Positions 2,948 to 49,289 of a stretch of DNA of 56,723 bases are shown one piece after another (position 1 is the first letter of the stretch; each line of letters begins with the position of its first letter). Source of the DNA: Bacteroidota bacterium. GTDB taxonomy: Bacteria; Bacteroidota; Bacteroidia; UKL13-3. The stretch is from NCBI GenBank assembly GCA_947456185.1, contig CANGPW010000008.1, forward strand, positions 1-56,723, read 5' to 3'. The translations under genes and the position numbers were made by a program. The notes under the pieces were generated by a model that saw nothing but the letters and a program-made list of their open reading frames with translations, did no database searches and was not told where the DNA came from.

Positions 2948-4377
2948 GGCTTAATTACTTTGAATTCTTTAATTGACGAAATAAAATCTAAAGTAGTTTC
3001 AAGATTTTCATAAGTAGAGCCAGAGTATGTTAGACTACATTTAAATAACGCATTAAAGCTGCCAAAATAAATATTTTTTTCAGAAAGAGAAATTCCACTG
3101 AATTTTTCTAGATTGAGGCTATTTATCGATTCGTATTTATTGCTAAACCCTTCATTTTTAGGTTTATACCCTCTCCAATCGCCATCAAAACTTATTGGAG
3201 AAATTTTTATTTCTCTCGATGAATTTTCTAGTATAACCATAACTTTATATGAATTAATATATTGCCATAGTTTATTTGAGAAAAAATTAAAAATTGCTCT
3301 ACGAGATTCTTCAGAACGAAGTAATAAATTGTAGCCGTTATATTTAATTGGATAAACATCTAGTCCAATTTTCCTTCTCTCATAAGCATTGTTGCGTTTT
3401 ACTCTAGTTGAATATTTACTTGGTAATATTTCAATTATCCATTGCTTAGTTTTGAATACCATAACTAAAGTATCACTTTCCCAAAGTTTTCTCGGATAAA
3501 AACCTCTGTCTTCAACTTTTAAATAAATGGGTATGTCTTTTTGGTAAGCATTATCTATTTCTTTATTTACATTTTCCCTGTTTGTTCTTTTATTTATCTT
3601 ATTTAGTTGGGACTTATTACCAACACTGTATGATATTATTTTTTGTCCATTCTCAATACCAGCTAATGAAGCGGGGCTTCCTTTTATCACGTCCCAAATA
3701 TTCCAATCATTGGGAATAGTGAACCCTTTATTTGTATTTAATTCGTATGTGTAATTATAGTCTAAAGCCTTTAAGGTTTTAGATATATGTTCTTGTAACT
3801 GATAAATATTGTTATTTGAAATTATACTTAAATCAAGATTTACTGACCAGCCCCATGGACTATTTATTGGTTCGGATGTTCCAAGTTTATAATCTAAAGA
3901 ATTTTTAAAAACAACATCTGCATAATTAAACATAGAATTAATAATGTTTCTTTCACTTTCTTCAGCAATTTTTTCATTTAAAGCTAATGCCTTAATATTT
4001 GAAGCAAACCCTTGAGCATCATATTTAATATCTTTGCCCTCATTTCTTATAAAAGCAACTATTTTTTCAGTGGATATTAACACTTCTAAGGTAACTGAAT
4101 AAGAACCTCCAATTTCCACCTTACTTACTTCCTTCATATTACTTACTACTCCAGTACTAAAAGTGTAAATTTCATCTTTCTGTAAGATATCATTTGATAA
4201 AAGCGAATTGGAGCTTACAAATGCCCCGTAAACTTTTTCAATTGCATACCTTAGCGCATTTTTACGGGCAACATCATAGGAATTACCTTCGCCTGTGCTT
4301 ATTAATATTGTGCCTTCCTGTCCATACACAAAAGTTGTTCCTAATAAAATTATTATTAATAGTAGTAATGCTCTCAT
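2944..4377 (-). CDS. Secreted FlgT/LPP20-like protein with a PDZ-like segment
   Basis: I take ATG at 4375-4377 rather than the TTG 24 nt upstream, because the signal peptide (RALLLLIIILLGTTFVYG) begins directly there and the overlap with the upstream gene disappears. The 477-residue product starts with a domain matching the FlgT N-terminal/LPP20 pattern: GEGNSYDVARKNALRYAIEK, then GAFVSSNSLL, then a GSYSVTLEVLIS strand. In FlgT this domain helps build the flagellar outer-membrane ring; LPP20 is a lipoprotein. Around residues 225-260 is a degenerate PDZ-like stretch (VIKGSPASLAGIENGQKI), a peptide-binding fold usual in envelope proteases and secretion factors. The rest is unassigned. It is the second gene of the operon. 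Domain calls are by pattern only. Confidence 0.6.
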   Translation of the reverse strand: MRALLLLIIILLGTTFVYGQEGTILISTGEGNSYDVARKNALRYAIEKVYGAFVSSNSLLSNDILQKDEIYTFSTGVVSNMKEVSKVEIGGSYSVTLEVLISTEKIVAFIRNEGKDIKYDAQGFASNIKALALNEKIAEESERNIINSMFNYADVVFKNSLDYKLGTSEPINSPWGWSVNLDLSIISNNNIYQLQEHISKTLKALDYNYTYELNTNKGFTIPNDWNIWDVIKGSPASLAGIENGQKIISYSVGNKSQLNKINKRTNRENVNKEIDNAYQKDIPIYLKVEDRGFYPRKLWESDTLVMVFKTKQWIIEILPSKYSTRVKRNNAYERRKIGLDVYPIKYNGYNLLLRSEESRRAIFNFFSNKLWQYINSYKVMVILENSSREIKISPISFDGDWRGYKPKNEGFSNKYESINSLNLEKFSGISLSEKNIYFGSFNALFKCSLTYSGSTYENLETTLDFISSIKEFKVIKP

Positions 4378-42289: not shown

Positions 42290-43390
42290 GTGAATATAGC
42301 AGTATTAAAGGAAACCCGTGAAGGTGAAAATAGAGTAGCTTTAACTCCAGCAGTTTGCACTCAATTAATAAAACAAGGTTACGAATGTTTGGTTGAAGAC
42401 AATGCAGGTTATAATTCTAACTTTAGCAATGATGCATATATCAATGTAGGTTGTAAAATTGTTTCAAAAGAAGAAGCTTTATCGAAAGCTAATATTTTAG
42501 CAAAAGTAAATGCTCCTAATGATAAAGAAATAAATAGTATGCAAGCGGGTTCGGCTTGCATTTCGTTTTTATATGCAGCCAATAATCCAGAATTAATTCA
42601 GCAATTAGCTGCTAAAAATATCAGTGCTTTTAGCATGGATGCCATTCCTAGAATTTCTAGAGCGCAAAATATGGATGCTTTAAGTTCTCAAGCTAACTTA
42701 GCTGGTTACAAAGCAGTAGTTTTGGGAGCTTCGCAATTAGGAAAAATTTTCCCTTTATTAATGACTTCGGCAGGAACAATTACTCCTTCTAGGGTGTTAA
42801 TATATGGTGCTGGAGTAGCAGGATTACAGGCTATTGCAACGGCAAAAAGGTTGGGTGCCATTGTAGAATGTACCGATGTAAGACCAGAAACTAAAGAACA
42901 AATTGAAAGTTTAGGCGGAAAATTTATTGAAGTAAAAGATGCAGAAGCAGCAAAAGTAGAAGGCGGATATGCCAAAGAAGTTTCGGCTGATTACTTACAA
43001 AAACAAAAAGAAGCAGTGAATAAAAGTTTGTTCATGGCCGATTTAGTAATTACAACTGCTTTGGTAATGGGCAAAAAAGCACCTATTTTAATTACTGAAG
43101 AACAAGTAAAACAAATGAAATTGGGGGCTGTAATAGTTGATATGGCAGTAGAACAAGGTGGAAATTGTGAACTAAGTGAATTAAATAAAACGGTCGTAAA
43201 ACATGGTGTAAATTTAATTGGTCAAAGTAACTTGCCAAGTACATTGCCTCAAAATGCCAGTGAATTGTATGCTAAAAACATTCAAAATTTATTAACACAT
43301 TTGGCTACCAAAGATGGTTTTAAATGGGAAATGGAAGAAGAAATTACCAAAGGAACTTTGATTACACACGAAGGGAAAATGTTGAAATAA
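42290..43390 (+). CDS. pntAA: NAD(P) transhydrogenase subunit alpha, part 1
   Basis: GTG at 42290 gives VNIAVLKETREGENRVALTP, the standard PntA N-terminus (366 residues); the ATG at 42215 would add a non-conserved extension. This is the NAD(H)-binding domain I: alanine-dehydrogenase-like fold with VLIYGAGVAGLQAIATAKRLGA (~170-190), DVRPETKEQIESLGGKF and VDMAVEQGGNCE. It works with the membrane parts PntAB and PntB to exchange hydride between NADH and NADP+ using the proton gradient. In Bacteroidota the alpha chain is split in two. The gene is divergent from the broken HDAC-like gene. An S23 gene follows before pntAB, which is unusual. Confidence 0.95.
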   Translation: MNIAVLKETREGENRVALTPAVCTQLIKQGYECLVEDNAGYNSNFSNDAYINVGCKIVSKEEALSKANILAKVNAPNDKEINSMQAGSACISFLYAANNPELIQQLAAKNISAFSMDAIPRISRAQNMDALSSQANLAGYKAVVLGASQLGKIFPLLMTSAGTITPSRVLIYGAGVAGLQAIATAKRLGAIVECTDVRPETKEQIESLGGKFIEVKDAEAAKVEGGYAKEVSADYLQKQKEAVNKSLFMADLVITTALVMGKKAPILITEEQVKQMKLGAVIVDMAVEQGGNCELSELNKTVVKHGVNLIGQSNLPSTLPQNASELYAKNIQNLLTHLATKDGFKWEMEEEITKGTLITHEGKMLK

Positions 43391-43430
43391 TTGATAAATT
43401 GTTAGATTGCTGAATTACTAAATTGTTAAC
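43391..43430. repeat. Octanucleotide array, left arm of S23 element 1
   Basis: Directly after the pntAA stop codon come degenerate 8-nt units of the ATTGTTRR type (ATTGTTAG, ATTGCTGA, ATTACTAA, ATTGTTAA at ~43398-43429). They are inverse-complementary to the array before pntAB, with 25 of 32 positions matching in the best alignment. Confidence 0.75.
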
Positions 43431-43437
43431 AAATAAA

Positions 43438-43827
43438 ATGGATGAAAATAACTTTAAATCATACTTATCAATTGATAAAATTGAGGCTTATAACAAAGCT
43501 TTGACATTTAGCAATTTGCTTTGGGATGAAGTTATTAAATTTGATTATTTTGAAAAAAACTCAGTTGGTTTACAATTAGTAAGAGCAGCCGGTTCAGTTT
43601 CAGCTAATATTGCCGAAGGTTTTGGTAGGTATCATAAAAAGGATAAAATTAAATTTTATCAATATGCCAAAGGTTCTGCTTTGGAATGTTATGATTGGCT
43701 ATTAAAATGTAAACATAGGAAATTATTGAATGAAAGTCAATTATTAGATCATATAGAAACAGTTCAGAATTTACCCAAATTAATTAACTATTTAATAAAA
43801 TATACAAACGATAATTTAAAAGAATGA
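43438..43827 (+). CDS. S23-family four-helix-bundle protein (23S rRNA intervening-sequence type), copy 1
   Basis: ATG 43438-43440 (129 residues). The family signature LVRAAGSVSANIAEGFGR (~46-63) is clear, followed by KIKFYQYAKGSALECYDWL; the protein is four amphipathic helices. The family was found as ORFs inside intervening sequences of 23S rRNA genes and includes relatives of the Avd accessory protein of diversity-generating retroelements; the molecular role of S23 is not established. Here it is not in an rRNA gene but between pntAA and pntAB, on the same strand, between inverted octanucleotide arrays. No reverse transcriptase is near, so a DGR is not supported. Confidence 0.88.
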   Translation: MDENNFKSYLSIDKIEAYNKALTFSNLLWDEVIKFDYFEKNSVGLQLVRAAGSVSANIAEGFGRYHKKDKIKFYQYAKGSALECYDWLLKCKHRKLLNESQLLDHIETVQNLPKLINYLIKYTNDNLKE

Positions 43828-43870
43828 TATAAATGGCTAAGTTGATAAATTGCTGAATTGTTTTTTTTTA

Positions 43871-43946
43871 CAATCCAACAATCCAACTATTTAACAATTT
43901 TACAATCTAACAATCCAACAATCTAACAAACCAACAATAAAACAAT
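43871..43946. repeat. Octanucleotide array, right arm of S23 element 1
   Basis: About nine 8-nt units of consensus CAATCYAA (CAATCCAA, CAATCCAA, CTATTTAA, CAATTTTA, CAATCTAA ...) run without gap up to the pntAB ATG. A T run (43860-43869) and a short copy in the opposite orientation (43841-43860) precede them. Confidence 0.85.
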
Positions 43947-44240
43947 ATGTTAACTTTTATCACACAACACATAGAAATGTGCTACCTCATTATCCTCATG
44001 ATATTTGTAGGTATTGAATTAATTGGCCATGTGCCTTCTGTATTACATACTCCATTAATGAGTGGCGCTAATGCGATTCATGGCGTAGTAATTATCGGTT
44101 CTATCATAGTAATGGGACAAGCAGAACAAACACTTTCATTGATATTAGGTTTTTTAGCAGTAGTGCTTGGAACGCTGAATGTAGTTGGTGGATTTGTAGT
44201 TACTGATAGGATGCTAGAAATGTTTAAAAAGAAAAAATAG
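43947..44240 (+). CDS. pntAB: NAD(P) transhydrogenase subunit alpha, part 2 (membrane)
   Basis: 97 residues with three transmembrane helices: CYLIILMIFVGIELIGHVP, AIHGVVIIGSIIVMGQ and LILGFLAVVLGTLNVVGGFV. This is the membrane C-terminal part of the alpha subunit (PNTB-4TM family), ending FVVTDRMLEMFKKKK. Together with the PntB membrane domain it forms the proton channel of transhydrogenase. The length and the conserved GANAIHGVVI loop are normal. It is flanked on both sides by S23 genes with repeat arrays that touch its start and stop codons. Confidence 0.93.
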   Translation: MLTFITQHIEMCYLIILMIFVGIELIGHVPSVLHTPLMSGANAIHGVVIIGSIIVMGQAEQTLSLILGFLAVVLGTLNVVGGFVVTDRMLEMFKKKK

Positions 44241-44267
44241 TTATCAGTTGTTAGTTGTCAGTTGATA
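44240..44267. repeat. Heptanucleotide array, left arm of S23 element 2
   Basis: Four 7-nt units, GTTATCA, GTTGTTA, GTTGTCA, GTTGATA, begin at the last base of the pntAB stop codon and end 9 nt before the S23 ATG. Confidence 0.8.
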
Positions 44268-44276
44268 GGAATTTAG

Positions 44277-44645
44277 ATGGAGTATAAAGATTTAGATGTT
44301 TGGAAAAAAGCAAGATTTTTAGCTAAATCAATTATAGAAGTAACTGAATTATTGCCAAGCAAAGAAAATTTTGCTATTGGCTTTCAAATAAGAAAATCTG
44401 CAATTTCTATCCCGTCAAATATTGCTGAAGGATGCGGCAGAAACACAACTAAAGACACATTACAATTTTTATACATTGCAAGAGGTTCATTATATGAAGT
44501 AGAAACTCAATTAATTTTGTGTTTTGATTTCAATTATATTACAGAAGAAAAATTGAATGAATTGAATGAACAAATAACTGAATGTAAAAAACTATTAAAT
44601 GGTTTTATTAATTACTATATATCAAAACTAAATATCAAAAACTAA
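44277..44645 (+). CDS. S23-family four-helix-bundle protein, copy 2
   Basis: 122 residues from ATG 44277. The start MEYKDLDVWKKARFLAK and the signature IRKSAISIPSNIAEGCGR (~39-56) identify the family; LQFLYIARGSLYEVETQL forms the next helix. It differs strongly from copy 1, so it did not arise by a recent local duplication: the two entered the pnt operon independently. The 3' end includes a 14-nt direct repeat (CTAAATATCAAAAA, twice, ~44629-44660) running through the stop codon. It lies between facing heptanucleotide arrays. Function unknown. Confidence 0.88.
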   Translation: MEYKDLDVWKKARFLAKSIIEVTELLPSKENFAIGFQIRKSAISIPSNIAEGCGRNTTKDTLQFLYIARGSLYEVETQLILCFDFNYITEEKLNELNEQITECKKLLNGFINYYISKLNIKN

Positions 44646-44698
44646 ATATCAAAAACTAAAAAATTATAAAATAAGGTTCATACAGTAGTCTCTTAATC

Positions 44699-44726
44699 TG
44701 ACAACTATCAACCGACAACTATCAAC
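44699..44726. repeat. Heptanucleotide array, right arm of S23 element 2
   Basis: Units TGACAAC, TATCAAC, CGACAAC, TATCAAC end 4 nt before the pntB ATG. The inverse complement of the middle units matches GTTGTCA-GTTGATA of the left arm at 13 of 14 positions. Confidence 0.85.
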
Positions 44727-44730
44727 TAAT

Positions 44731-46146
44731 ATGGAAAACAACATACTACAAATAATCTACTTAATAGGCTCAGTAACATTTATACTTGGCTTAAAATTTT
44801 TAGGAAACCCTGCCACTGCGCGCAAGGGTAATTTAATGGCTGCCTTTGGAATGATCATATCCATTTTTGGTACCATATTTTTATACACCACCGAAGCAGG
44901 TGCACACTTACATAACCTCGGTTTTATATTTGGTGCATTATTAGTTGGAACTGTTGTTGGCTGGATGATTGCCAAAAAAGTTCAAATGACTGCCATGCCC
45001 GAAATGGTGAGTTTATTTAACGGAATGGGTGGCGCTTGTGCCATGTTAATTTCTGTAATTGAATTCAAACATTTAAGTGAAACCGATTTATCATTGGTGG
45101 AACCTTCTCATTTATTAATTATATTATTAGGATTAATCATTGGTTCGGTTTCATTTGCTGGAAGTATTATAGCTTGGGGTAAATTAAGCGGAAACGTAAA
45201 AGACAAATCATTAGGAATGCAACAAGTGATCAATATTGGTTTGTTGTTAGTCATATTGGTTTTAACAACTATTATGATCATGGGCAATGGTGTTTATACC
45301 ATCGAATTATTCTATGCAGTTTTTGCTTTATCATTATTATACGGAATATTATTTGTTTTGCCAATTGGTGGTGCCGATATGCCAGTAGTAATTTCTTTAT
45401 TGAACTCGTTTACGGGTGTAGCTGCTGCTTGTGGCGGATTTTTATACGACAATAAAGTCATGTTGGTAGGAGGAATTTTAGTTGGTTCGGCCGGAACATT
45501 ATTAACCATTGTGATGTGTAAAGCCATGAACCGTTCTTTGTTAAATGTATTGATAGGAAACTTTGGTGGAAATGCCAATGCTGCTGATGCAGTTCCTTCA
45601 AACTTTGAAGGATCAATAAAAGAAGTGACTGCAAGCGATGCAGCTATTTTAATGAAATATGCTAAGAAAGTAATTATTGTTCCTGGATATGGTTTAGCAG
45701 TTGCGCAAGCACAACACATTGTTCACGATTTAGAATTATTATTAGAAGCAGAAGGCATAGATGTAAAATATGCCATTCATCCTGTTGCAGGACGTATGCC
45801 TGGCCACATGAATGTGTTGCTTGCCGAAAGTAATGTAAGCTACGATAAGTTAATAGAAATGGAAGAAGTAAATCCTGAATTTGCTACTACCGATGTGGTA
45901 TTAGTAGTTGGTGCAAACGATGTGGTAAATCCTGCGGCTAAAACCGATCCCACTTCACCTATTTACGGAATGCCAATATTAGATGTAGAAAATGCTGCCA
46001 ATGTGATTGTAAACAAACGAAGCATGAAAGCTGGTTATGCAGGTATTGAAAATGAATTGTTCTATAAACCAAAAACCAGCATGTTATTTGGCGATGCCAA
46101 AAAAGCTTTGACTCAGTTAGTGAGTGAAATTAAGGCTTTGGGATAG
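44731..46146 (+). CDS. pntB: NAD(P) transhydrogenase subunit beta
   Basis: 471 residues, full length. About eight to nine transmembrane helices occupy the first ~270 residues (including GALLVGTVVGWMIAKKVQMT and the LLNSFTGVAAACGGFL loop); the NADP(H)-binding domain III follows with VPGYGLAVAQAQHIVHDL (~310), YAIHPVAGRMPGHMNVLLAE and VVLVVGANDVVNPAAKTDP. It completes the proton-translocating transhydrogenase in the inner membrane, supplying NADPH. A strong UUCG-loop terminator follows. It is the last gene of the operon; the S23 gene before it starts 454 nt upstream. Confidence 0.96.
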   Translation: MENNILQIIYLIGSVTFILGLKFLGNPATARKGNLMAAFGMIISIFGTIFLYTTEAGAHLHNLGFIFGALLVGTVVGWMIAKKVQMTAMPEMVSLFNGMGGACAMLISVIEFKHLSETDLSLVEPSHLLIILLGLIIGSVSFAGSIIAWGKLSGNVKDKSLGMQQVINIGLLLVILVLTTIMIMGNGVYTIELFYAVFALSLLYGILFVLPIGGADMPVVISLLNSFTGVAAACGGFLYDNKVMLVGGILVGSAGTLLTIVMCKAMNRSLLNVLIGNFGGNANAADAVPSNFEGSIKEVTASDAAILMKYAKKVIIVPGYGLAVAQAQHIVHDLELLLEAEGIDVKYAIHPVAGRMPGHMNVLLAESNVSYDKLIEMEEVNPEFATTDVVLVVGANDVVNPAAKTDPTSPIYGMPILDVENAANVIVNKRSMKAGYAGIENELFYKPKTSMLFGDAKKALTQLVSEIKALG

Positions 46147-49221: not shown

Positions 49222-49225
49222 TGAT

Positions 49226-49289
49226 AGGTGTTGAAGTTTTTGTGTGTTAAAGTGTTTAGGTGTTGAATTGTTTCGGAGTTTTATGGTTG
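49226..49289. repeat. Octanucleotide array upstream of the antiporter gene
   Basis: Eight 8-nt units (AGGTGTTG, AAGTTTTT, GTGTGTTA, AAGTGTTT, AGGTGTTG, AATTGTTT, CGGAGTTT, TATGGTTG) begin 5 nt from the antiporter ATG. Units are degenerate but the 8-nt phase is kept. No facing arm is obvious. Confidence 0.6.

Follow-up and report, generated by a model that had tools for sequence, protein, structure and literature searches.

S23 genes between facing short-repeat arrays at both junctions of a Bacteroidota pnt operon suggest mobile, intervening-sequence-like cassettes of operon gaps

In a Bacteroidota genome of the UKL13-3 lineage (assembly GCA_947456185.1), the genes pntAA, pntAB and pntB follow each other on contig CANGPW010000008.1, of which positions 1 to 56,723 were analysed and are here called the window. 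Each of the two junctions, J1 between pntAA and pntAB and J2 between pntAB and pntB, holds a gene of the S23 family, the four-helix-bundle or 23S rRNA intervening sequence (IVS) proteins, enclosed by arrays of short repeats that face each other (Table 1). A first, sequence-only reading of the window had named these genes correctly: the pnt genes are confirmed by Pfam, and both S23 open reading frames (ORFs) are family members according to PF05635 (81.7 bits for S23_1 and 135.4 for S23_2; cut-off 33.8) and TIGR02436 (82.9 and 129 bits; cut-off 24). S23_2 also matches the Avd profile NF033474 (E=1.1e-7) and the solved structures 2rld (E=5.5e-6) and 2gsc (XCC0516; E=1e-18), the latter described as a pentamer of four-helix bundles (PMC4990558). 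The facing arrays, of 8-nt units at J1 and 7-nt units at J2, are recovered by Tandem Repeats Finder (TRF) and as inverted pairs at 43391-43429 versus 43891-43929 (39 nt, 77% complementary) and at 44242-44268 versus 44705-44731 (27 nt, 89% complementary). As first read, the left arrays start at the upstream stop codons, and at J1 the right array directly abuts the ATG of pntAB; at J2 the distance to the ATG of pntB is 2 nt, not 4 nt. The two S23 proteins share 27% identity, belong to different S23 clades, and occur or are missing independently across related pnt loci, which bears out the suggestion of two independent insertions.

Table 1. Genes and repeat arrays of the pnt operon in the window.
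Feature	Position	Strand	Description
pntAA	42215..43390	+	ORF with Pfam PF05222/PF01262 (AlaDh/PNT N- and C-terminal domains); start codon tentative
J1 left array	43391..43430	+	8-nt word (about AATTGTTA/AATTGCTG); begins at pntAA stop codon; TRF period 8 at 43389-43429
S23_1 gene	43438..43827	+	129 aa; PF05635 E=5.5e-23, TIGR02436 E=1.8e-23
Partial direct copy of J1 left array	43829-43862	+	Direct repeat, 76%; immediately upstream of J1 right array
J1 right array	43870..43946	+	Complementary 8-nt word (ACAATCCA/ACAATCTA); TRF period 8/16, 9.6 copies
pntAB	43947..44240	+	PF12769 E=2.2e-32
J2 left array	44237-44268	+	7-nt word (AGTTGTC/AGTTGAT); TRF period 7/14; begins at pntAB stop codon
S23_2 gene	44277-44645	+	122 aa; PF05635 E=1.1e-39
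14-nt tandem repeat across S23_2 stop codon	44614-44660	+	TRF 3.4 copies, 94%
J2 right array	44699..44728	+	Complementary 7-nt word (GACAACTATCAAC); TRF 44700-44726 and 44702-44728
pntB	44731..46146	+	PF02233 E=1.9e-179

Facing arms were scored by aligning the 180 nt upstream of each full-length S23 gene to the reverse-complemented 200 nt on its downstream side, after exclusion of 12 S23 fragments, and the 99th percentile of dinucleotide shuffles (13.5) served as the threshold. J1 (16.5) and J2 (19.5) both lie above it. In the window and 400 kb of the same genome the threshold is passed by 18 of 327 ORFs, including all four S23 genes and the sole GxxExxY gene of the sample (PF13366, a family of the PD-(D/E)XK nuclease superfamily). 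The others are 13 of 322 ORFs, and three of the highest among them adjoin S23 or a cluster of S23 words on contig C2. Six facing pairs in 457 kb score at least 20; three of them belong to a single S23 locus and one to the GxxExxY gene. When the S23 matches of this genome were tabulated, seven of eight passed; the eighth scores 12.5 and has an internal stop. Facing arms flank 157 of 222 S23 genes from Bacteroidota and Cyanobacteriota, with pass rates of 58/66 in the genus, 12/21 in the family, 14/29 in the phylum, 49/77 in named genomes (among them Flavobacterium, Pedobacter, and Mucilaginibacter), and 24/29 in Cyanobacteriota; cross-locus pairs pass in 4.4, 4.6, 1.8, 6.3, and 5.7%, respectively. 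The loci from beyond the genus represent the top-scoring S23 matches of each search instead of a random draw, and orthologues were counted, so that these loci are not independent. PF05635 was found in 10/10 genomes of the genus (4 to 12 matches each), 52/58 of the family sample, 116/148 of the phylum sample, and 51/98 in the phylum of a Gastranaerophilales locus, which we take to be the Cyanobacteriota. The dN/dS of S23 ranges from 0.02 to 0.27 (median 0.105; 56 pairs with at least 80% identity) and indicates purifying selection on the protein.

The genes sit predominantly in sense orientation within operons. Where both neighbours share a strand, all sets together contain 186 sense and 8 antisense S23 genes. 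Among the 82 S23 genes of the genus and family with both neighbours called, 73 are sense between co-directional neighbours, 8 have an upstream neighbour that runs divergently (in 7 cases at the homogentisate dioxygenase junction), and 1 is antisense; in the phylum, named, and cyanobacterial sets, 22, 71, and 20 are sense and 2, 0, and 5 antisense, with 7 mixed and 10 unclear cases. The genus and family set comprises about 28 distinct junctions. Those checked by Pfam include homocysteine S-methyltransferase/pterin-B12 domain protein (split metH), PaaA-PaaC family/PaaB, ribonucleotide reductase small/large chain, POR_N/TPP_enzyme_C, glutamate-type dehydrogenase/kynureninase, class V aminotransferase/D-2-hydroxyacid dehydrogenase (by context SerC/SerA), and SufB-type/ABC ATPase (SufC by context); the junction of locus L295 is Cpn10/Cpn60, i.e. 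groES/groEL.

Comparison of the pnt operon in ten related genomes (loci L009-L018), in which J1 was readable in nine and J2 in ten, revealed that both junctions are polymorphic. J1 holds S23_1 in two genomes, a third S23 type (S23_3) in four, a nucleotidyltransferase/HepT pair in one (PF18765 and PF01934; L018 of genome G018), and no ORF in two. J2 holds S23_2 in three genomes, S23_4 in three (one with an in-frame TGA), S23_5 in one, and no S23 gene in three. The pntB tree does not group the genomes by these states: S23_1 occurs in G000 and G007, S23_2 in G000, G008, and G003. Old vertical presence of S23 genes with unrelated flanks is not what the relatives display: S23 is found repeatedly at the same junctions, but cassettes there have also been exchanged, are missing, or have moved between genera. 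In 20 pnt loci from further genera and families (L019-L038), tblastn detected no relatives of S23_1 or S23_2, a search that missed a diverged S23 gene in L024, the one locus then rescanned with the S23 profile. The 510-nt J2 of L024 encodes S23_5. Compared with L014 of the window's genus, the S23_5 cassette has a nucleotide identity of 0.894 (0.915 for the S23 coding sequence; 0.90-0.97 in 60-column windows of the 3' part), whereas the flanking genes reach 0.749 (pntAB) and 0.786 (pntB), and identity drops to 0.80 once the start codon of pntB is reached. This comparison indicates that the S23_5 cassette was transferred across genera into the same pnt junction. Contamination of one of these draft genomes may also produce such a match; in L014 and L024 alike the cassette lies within a pnt operon of the genome's own type.

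A similar turnover is found at the split-metH junction. Within one genus, one S23 lineage is present in G001, G004, and G006, another in G002, G007, and G009, and a GxxExxY gene with its own facing arrays in G000, G003, and G005. In the family, both metH parts were found in 18 loci, 12 of the 30 being unreadable; these 18 contain S23 in 7 cases, GxxExxY in 1, another ORF in 1, a receiver-like ORF (identified by eye) in 3, and an ORF-less gap of 30-166 nt in 6. In a further genus (g7), G051 carries an S23 insert where G015, G042, and G057 have 30-41 nt only. Array hairpins at empty junctions are clear only at J2 of L017 (14.5) and at a metH junction (L270; 22.5); J2 of L015 is weak (10.5), and J2 of L018 has none (6.5). 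The synonymous divergence (dS) of S23 is lower than that of its flanks in 48 of 60 same-junction pairs (median ratio 0.63), and five pairs combine an S23 dS of at most 0.04 with a flank dS of 0.135-0.338. For the genes of the window, S23_1 gave 0.33 against G007 (pntAB 0.81, pntB 0.74), and S23_2 gave 0.51 against G003 (pntAB 0.90, pntB 0.67) and 0.054 against G008 (pntB 0.215). These values fit recent exchange at the same site, to which a lower synonymous rate of S23 could contribute.

Arm evolution was followed in 72 elements whose intergenic arms had been trimmed. The score between the two arms of one element remains near 16-18 at every S23 distance. At S23 identities of at least 90% (39 pairs) it is 17.8, and the same arm scores 48.9 between orthologues; below 75% identity (73 pairs, some of which are different S23 lineages at metH), the within-element score is 16.0 and the same-arm score 10.9. 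A single-lineage example is the paaB junction of G003 and G000, with 17.5/17.5 within and 8 and 10 between the elements. Moreover, the order of unit variants is mirrored between the arms: 106 ungapped stems are 85% identical in register and 65% one unit off, and of the stems above 0.6, 62 fit best at a shift of 7 nt and 11 at 8 nt. Both arms therefore change together, with their complementarity kept while the words turn over. One candidate history, in which S23 inserted into a ready hairpin and one arm was duplicated, was suggested by the direct copy at J1 and was discarded; a one-sided hairpin exceeds background at only 12 of 222 flanks, and the right side of J1 alone scores 11.5.

The explanation that we favour, with moderate confidence, is that each S23 gene and its facing arrays form one mobile, IVS-like cassette that has settled in operon gaps and spreads at the DNA level. 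Arm, S23 ORF, and complementary arm would be inherited, exchanged, and lost as one unit, which could also be transferred into the same junction elsewhere. The arms would act like terminal inverted repeats built of heptamer-like words, and a DNA-level process that copies one arm onto the other or homogenises the two would keep them complementary while the word drifts. The conserved S23 protein, whose four-helix-bundle fold resembles that of Avd, probably binds the arms of its own cassette, either as DNA or as RNA, and may thereby serve the spread of the cassette; this binding and the chemistry of mobility are the parts of the reading that we infer, together with any cut by RNase III. The host would tolerate the insert because only the intercistronic gap is replaced, and in sense orientation. 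The arms could pair in mRNA and may then become targets of RNase III, as happens in the IVSs of rRNA, to which the cassettes are probably kin.

The closest described system is the 23S IVS of Coxiella burnetii, which combines a sense-oriented S23 ORF with a terminal stem of 28 bp and three GACAGAT heptamers before the ATG, and in which RNase III cuts at the first heptamer repeat; its ORF is reported to be in decay and probably unexpressed (PMC4990558). The pnt cassettes share with it the sense S23 ORF, the stem-forming complementary ends, and the heptamers beside the S23 start, and S23 cassettes also resemble it in their sporadic distribution and suspected horizontal transfer (PMC4990558). They differ in that S23 appears to be under purifying selection and not decaying, that they occupy intercistronic gaps of protein operons, and that one genome carries many copies with differing words. 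The pnt inserts lie between pntAA, pntAB, and pntB instead of in 23S rRNA, and an Rfam search at gathering scores found no match at L009 and nine other S23 loci. The cassettes are thus IVS-like but not classed as rRNA IVSs. The same search gave no group I or II intron match for L009, and this genome (94% complete) contains no reverse transcriptase of family PF00078, so that the inserts are assigned neither to such introns nor to diversity-generating retroelements (DGRs). In rRNA of the Candidate Phyla Radiation, one insertion site may be occupied by varied ORF families, including 23S_rRNA_IVP, or by an ORF-less short form; unlike the present cassettes, these insertions lie in rRNA and mostly encode LAGLIDADG/GIY-YIG homing endonucleases, and the available text on them does not mention facing heptamer arrays (PMC11270868).

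An alternative is that the arms are kept for a stem in mRNA, where cleavage by RNase III would free the S23 stretch and uncouple the cistrons. Processing of such a stem had been envisaged in the sequence-only reading, and the IVS-like anatomy it described holds, as the arms enclosing the S23 ORF pair in predicted folds of both junction RNAs (minimum free energy structures with 29 bp at J1 and 21 bp at J2; expected 26.0 and 20.9 bp). Own-arm duplexes in the 72 elements have a median of -30.9 kcal/mol versus -15.7 for swapped arms, and own arms outdo all 15 swaps in 43 of them. The sense bias of 186 to 8 and the cut at the first Coxiella heptamer point in the same direction. Any inverted repeat, however, is expected to pair, and the homogentisate dioxygenase junction, with its upstream gene on the opposite strand, has arms around S23 as well. 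The mismatches in 192 stems, with sense-strand mutation bias uncorrected, comprise 217 G.U, 277 A.C, and 955 transversions; there is no wobble excess, and the difference (p=0.008) runs opposite to the direction expected from selection for a sense-RNA stem. The RNA stem is therefore not supported as the selected feature, contrary to the initial proposal, and a DNA-level cause, for instance one arm serving as template for the other, is the better fit. We consider RNA-level maintenance of the arms unlikely.

Intergenic heptamer arrays as such are known from Cyanobacteria, Bacteroidetes, and other groups, and their origin is unexplained (PMC4679880, PMC4692102). The repeats described here conform to the published heptamer pattern, with periods of 7/14 at J2 and 8 at J1 and one-unit shifts of mostly 7 nt. 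Xanthomonas and Nostoc carry GGGAATC/GGGGA(C/T)T arrays, in Xanthomonas with 70-75 convergent pairs per genome (PMC4692102), and TAACTGA arrays upstream of start codons in Beggiatoaceae have been proposed as translational control sites (PMC4679880). By analogy with the latter, S23 could be an ordinary, vertically inherited small host protein and the arrays its operator or translational control sites, in line with the low median dN/dS of 0.105 and with S23 being mostly monophyletic per junction. Such an arrangement would hardly place unrelated S23 genes, GxxExxY, nucleotidyltransferase/HepT, or nothing at one junction within a genus, nor would it explain the cross-genus transfer of a cassette, the presence of facing arrays on both sides, or the variation of words from copy to copy in one genome, and we regard it as improbable. 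The available parts of both heptamer-repeat papers (PMC4679880, PMC4692102) contain no mention of S23, and a search of the open-licence papers in PubMed Central found none in which S23 is connected with facing arrays beyond rRNA.

The words of the arms also occur away from S23. In S23-free DNA of this genome (18 stretches of 20 kb), 33 intergenic 7/8-nt arrays were found, of which 14 match arms of the eight own S23 cassettes with scores of at least 16; arms from other genera match 0.97 on average (100 draws). The arm word differs between S23 copies within one genome. Words are shared by 11 of 33 S23 pairs above a similarity ratio of 0.6 and by 0.1-1.2% of the pairs below 0.5, and since the closest S23 pairs share words, the unit seems to arrive at new junctions together with its word, which afterwards drifts. 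That the arrays are only a by-product of slippage, i.e. neutral, expandable repeats that S23 tolerates or lands in, has little chance of being correct: arrays are indeed frequent (146 found by TRF in 457 kb, besides the 14 of 33 S23-free arrays with S23 words), but facing arrays at gene-length distance are rare beyond S23 and GxxExxY (13 of 322 ORFs), and slippage by itself does not explain why both arms remain complementary with a mirrored order of units. Two loci illustrate the distribution of the words. In L125 (G000:C7, 2671-2943), facing arrays without S23 but with the J2 word lie behind a metH-like 3' end, and the J2 word recurs also in L134 and L135. In L120 (G000:C2, 145-7645), the word TTCATAC/AAGTATG fills several successive junctions around one S23 gene.

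A conserved gene between facing repeats that are also dispersed without the gene is known from repetitive extragenic palindromic (REP) sequences and their RAYT transposase. The S23 cassettes are similar in that their flanking repeats recur without the gene in the same genome (14 of 33 arrays), and differ in that the gene is S23 and no Y1-type transposase, and in having arrays of short words instead of single palindromes. The DGR accessory protein Avd shares its fold family with S23_2 (PMC10053308).

Several observations weigh against a mobile DNA-level cassette. No transposase, recombinase, or reverse transcriptase is encoded within the pnt cassettes, where S23 is the only family-matching ORF between the arms, and a reverse transcriptase as mobiliser was rejected, as PF00078 is missing from this genome and from 8 of 10 congeners (present in two). 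Facing arms fall below the threshold at 65 of the 222 S23 genes, so that S23 genes without arrays, which the sequence-only reading would have counted against itself, do exist beside the majority that have them. The S23 genes mostly group by junction in their tree, which suggests that many copies are old residents. S23 has a higher dS than its flanks in 12 of 60 same-junction pairs, and synonymous constraint might be a partial cause of the low values in the others. Arms of congeners match 1 to 11 of the 33 S23-free arrays, and word sharing is thus partly genus-wide. Finally, the idea that the S23 sequence dictates the word across different junctions was dropped after an overall null result (Spearman 0.02; 73 of 300 permutations as high).

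The GxxExxY genes may represent a parallel cassette. The copy in the split-metH junction of this genome (L147, G000:C12:294-644) has an arm score of 38.5, the highest of the 327 ORFs. In the phylum, GxxExxY genes have facing arms at 16 of 30 loci versus 2.6% of 870 cross pairs (direct repeats at 10 of 30), and words of the CACAGAG/ACGGAGA kind occur in most of the top fourteen listed. DUF559 was tried as a third facing-array gene and rejected, with inverted repeats at 6 and direct repeats at 8 of 15 testable loci (30 taken) and palindromic flanks. Palindromic repeats, several of them direct, lie on both sides of DUF559 in L362, L363, L368, L369, L374, and L377.

It is tempting, if still tentative, to regard the S23 and the CACAGAG-type GxxExxY cassettes as an undescribed mobile class, in which a small protein gene between facing terminal arrays settles in intercistronic gaps and the arms also give rise to the heptamer arrays scattered through genomes of Bacteroidota and Cyanobacteriota. 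If this were true, the IVS of 23S rRNA would be the case that was noticed for breaking a ribosomal RNA, and bacterial heptamer repeats would be traces of the class. Three subjects that have been treated separately would be joined: S23-bearing rRNA IVSs, intergenic heptamer repeats, and S23 genes beside cas genes or DGRs. The latter neighbourhoods have been taken as functional hints (PMC3936711, PMC10053308), and an S23 gene that separates cmr3 from cmr2 in Pleurocapsa was interpreted as Cas-linked (PMC3936711). An intercistronic cassette explains the order cmr3-S23-cmr2 as well, and if S23 cassettes settle in operon gaps generally, cas and DGR neighbourhoods would be weak evidence of function. 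S23 is offered here as a testable owner of heptamer arrays, with culturable hosts among Flavobacterium, Pedobacter, and Mucilaginibacter.

A further 8/16-nt array (GTGTTTAA type), for which no adjoining S23 gene was found in the window, is located at 49225-49273. One of the related pnt loci (L013, G009:C94) contains a second copy of the last 25 pntB codons at 3216-3290, about 300 nt downstream of the gene. In three of 196 S23 loci (L184, L159, and L175), the whole S23 gene lies within a longer ORF of a different frame, and the relative frame is identical in all three. In L184 (G116, minus strand, about 1440-1890) this overlapping host ORF matches an N6/MmeI-type methylase and DUF559, and in L159 it matches an N6_N4 methylase.

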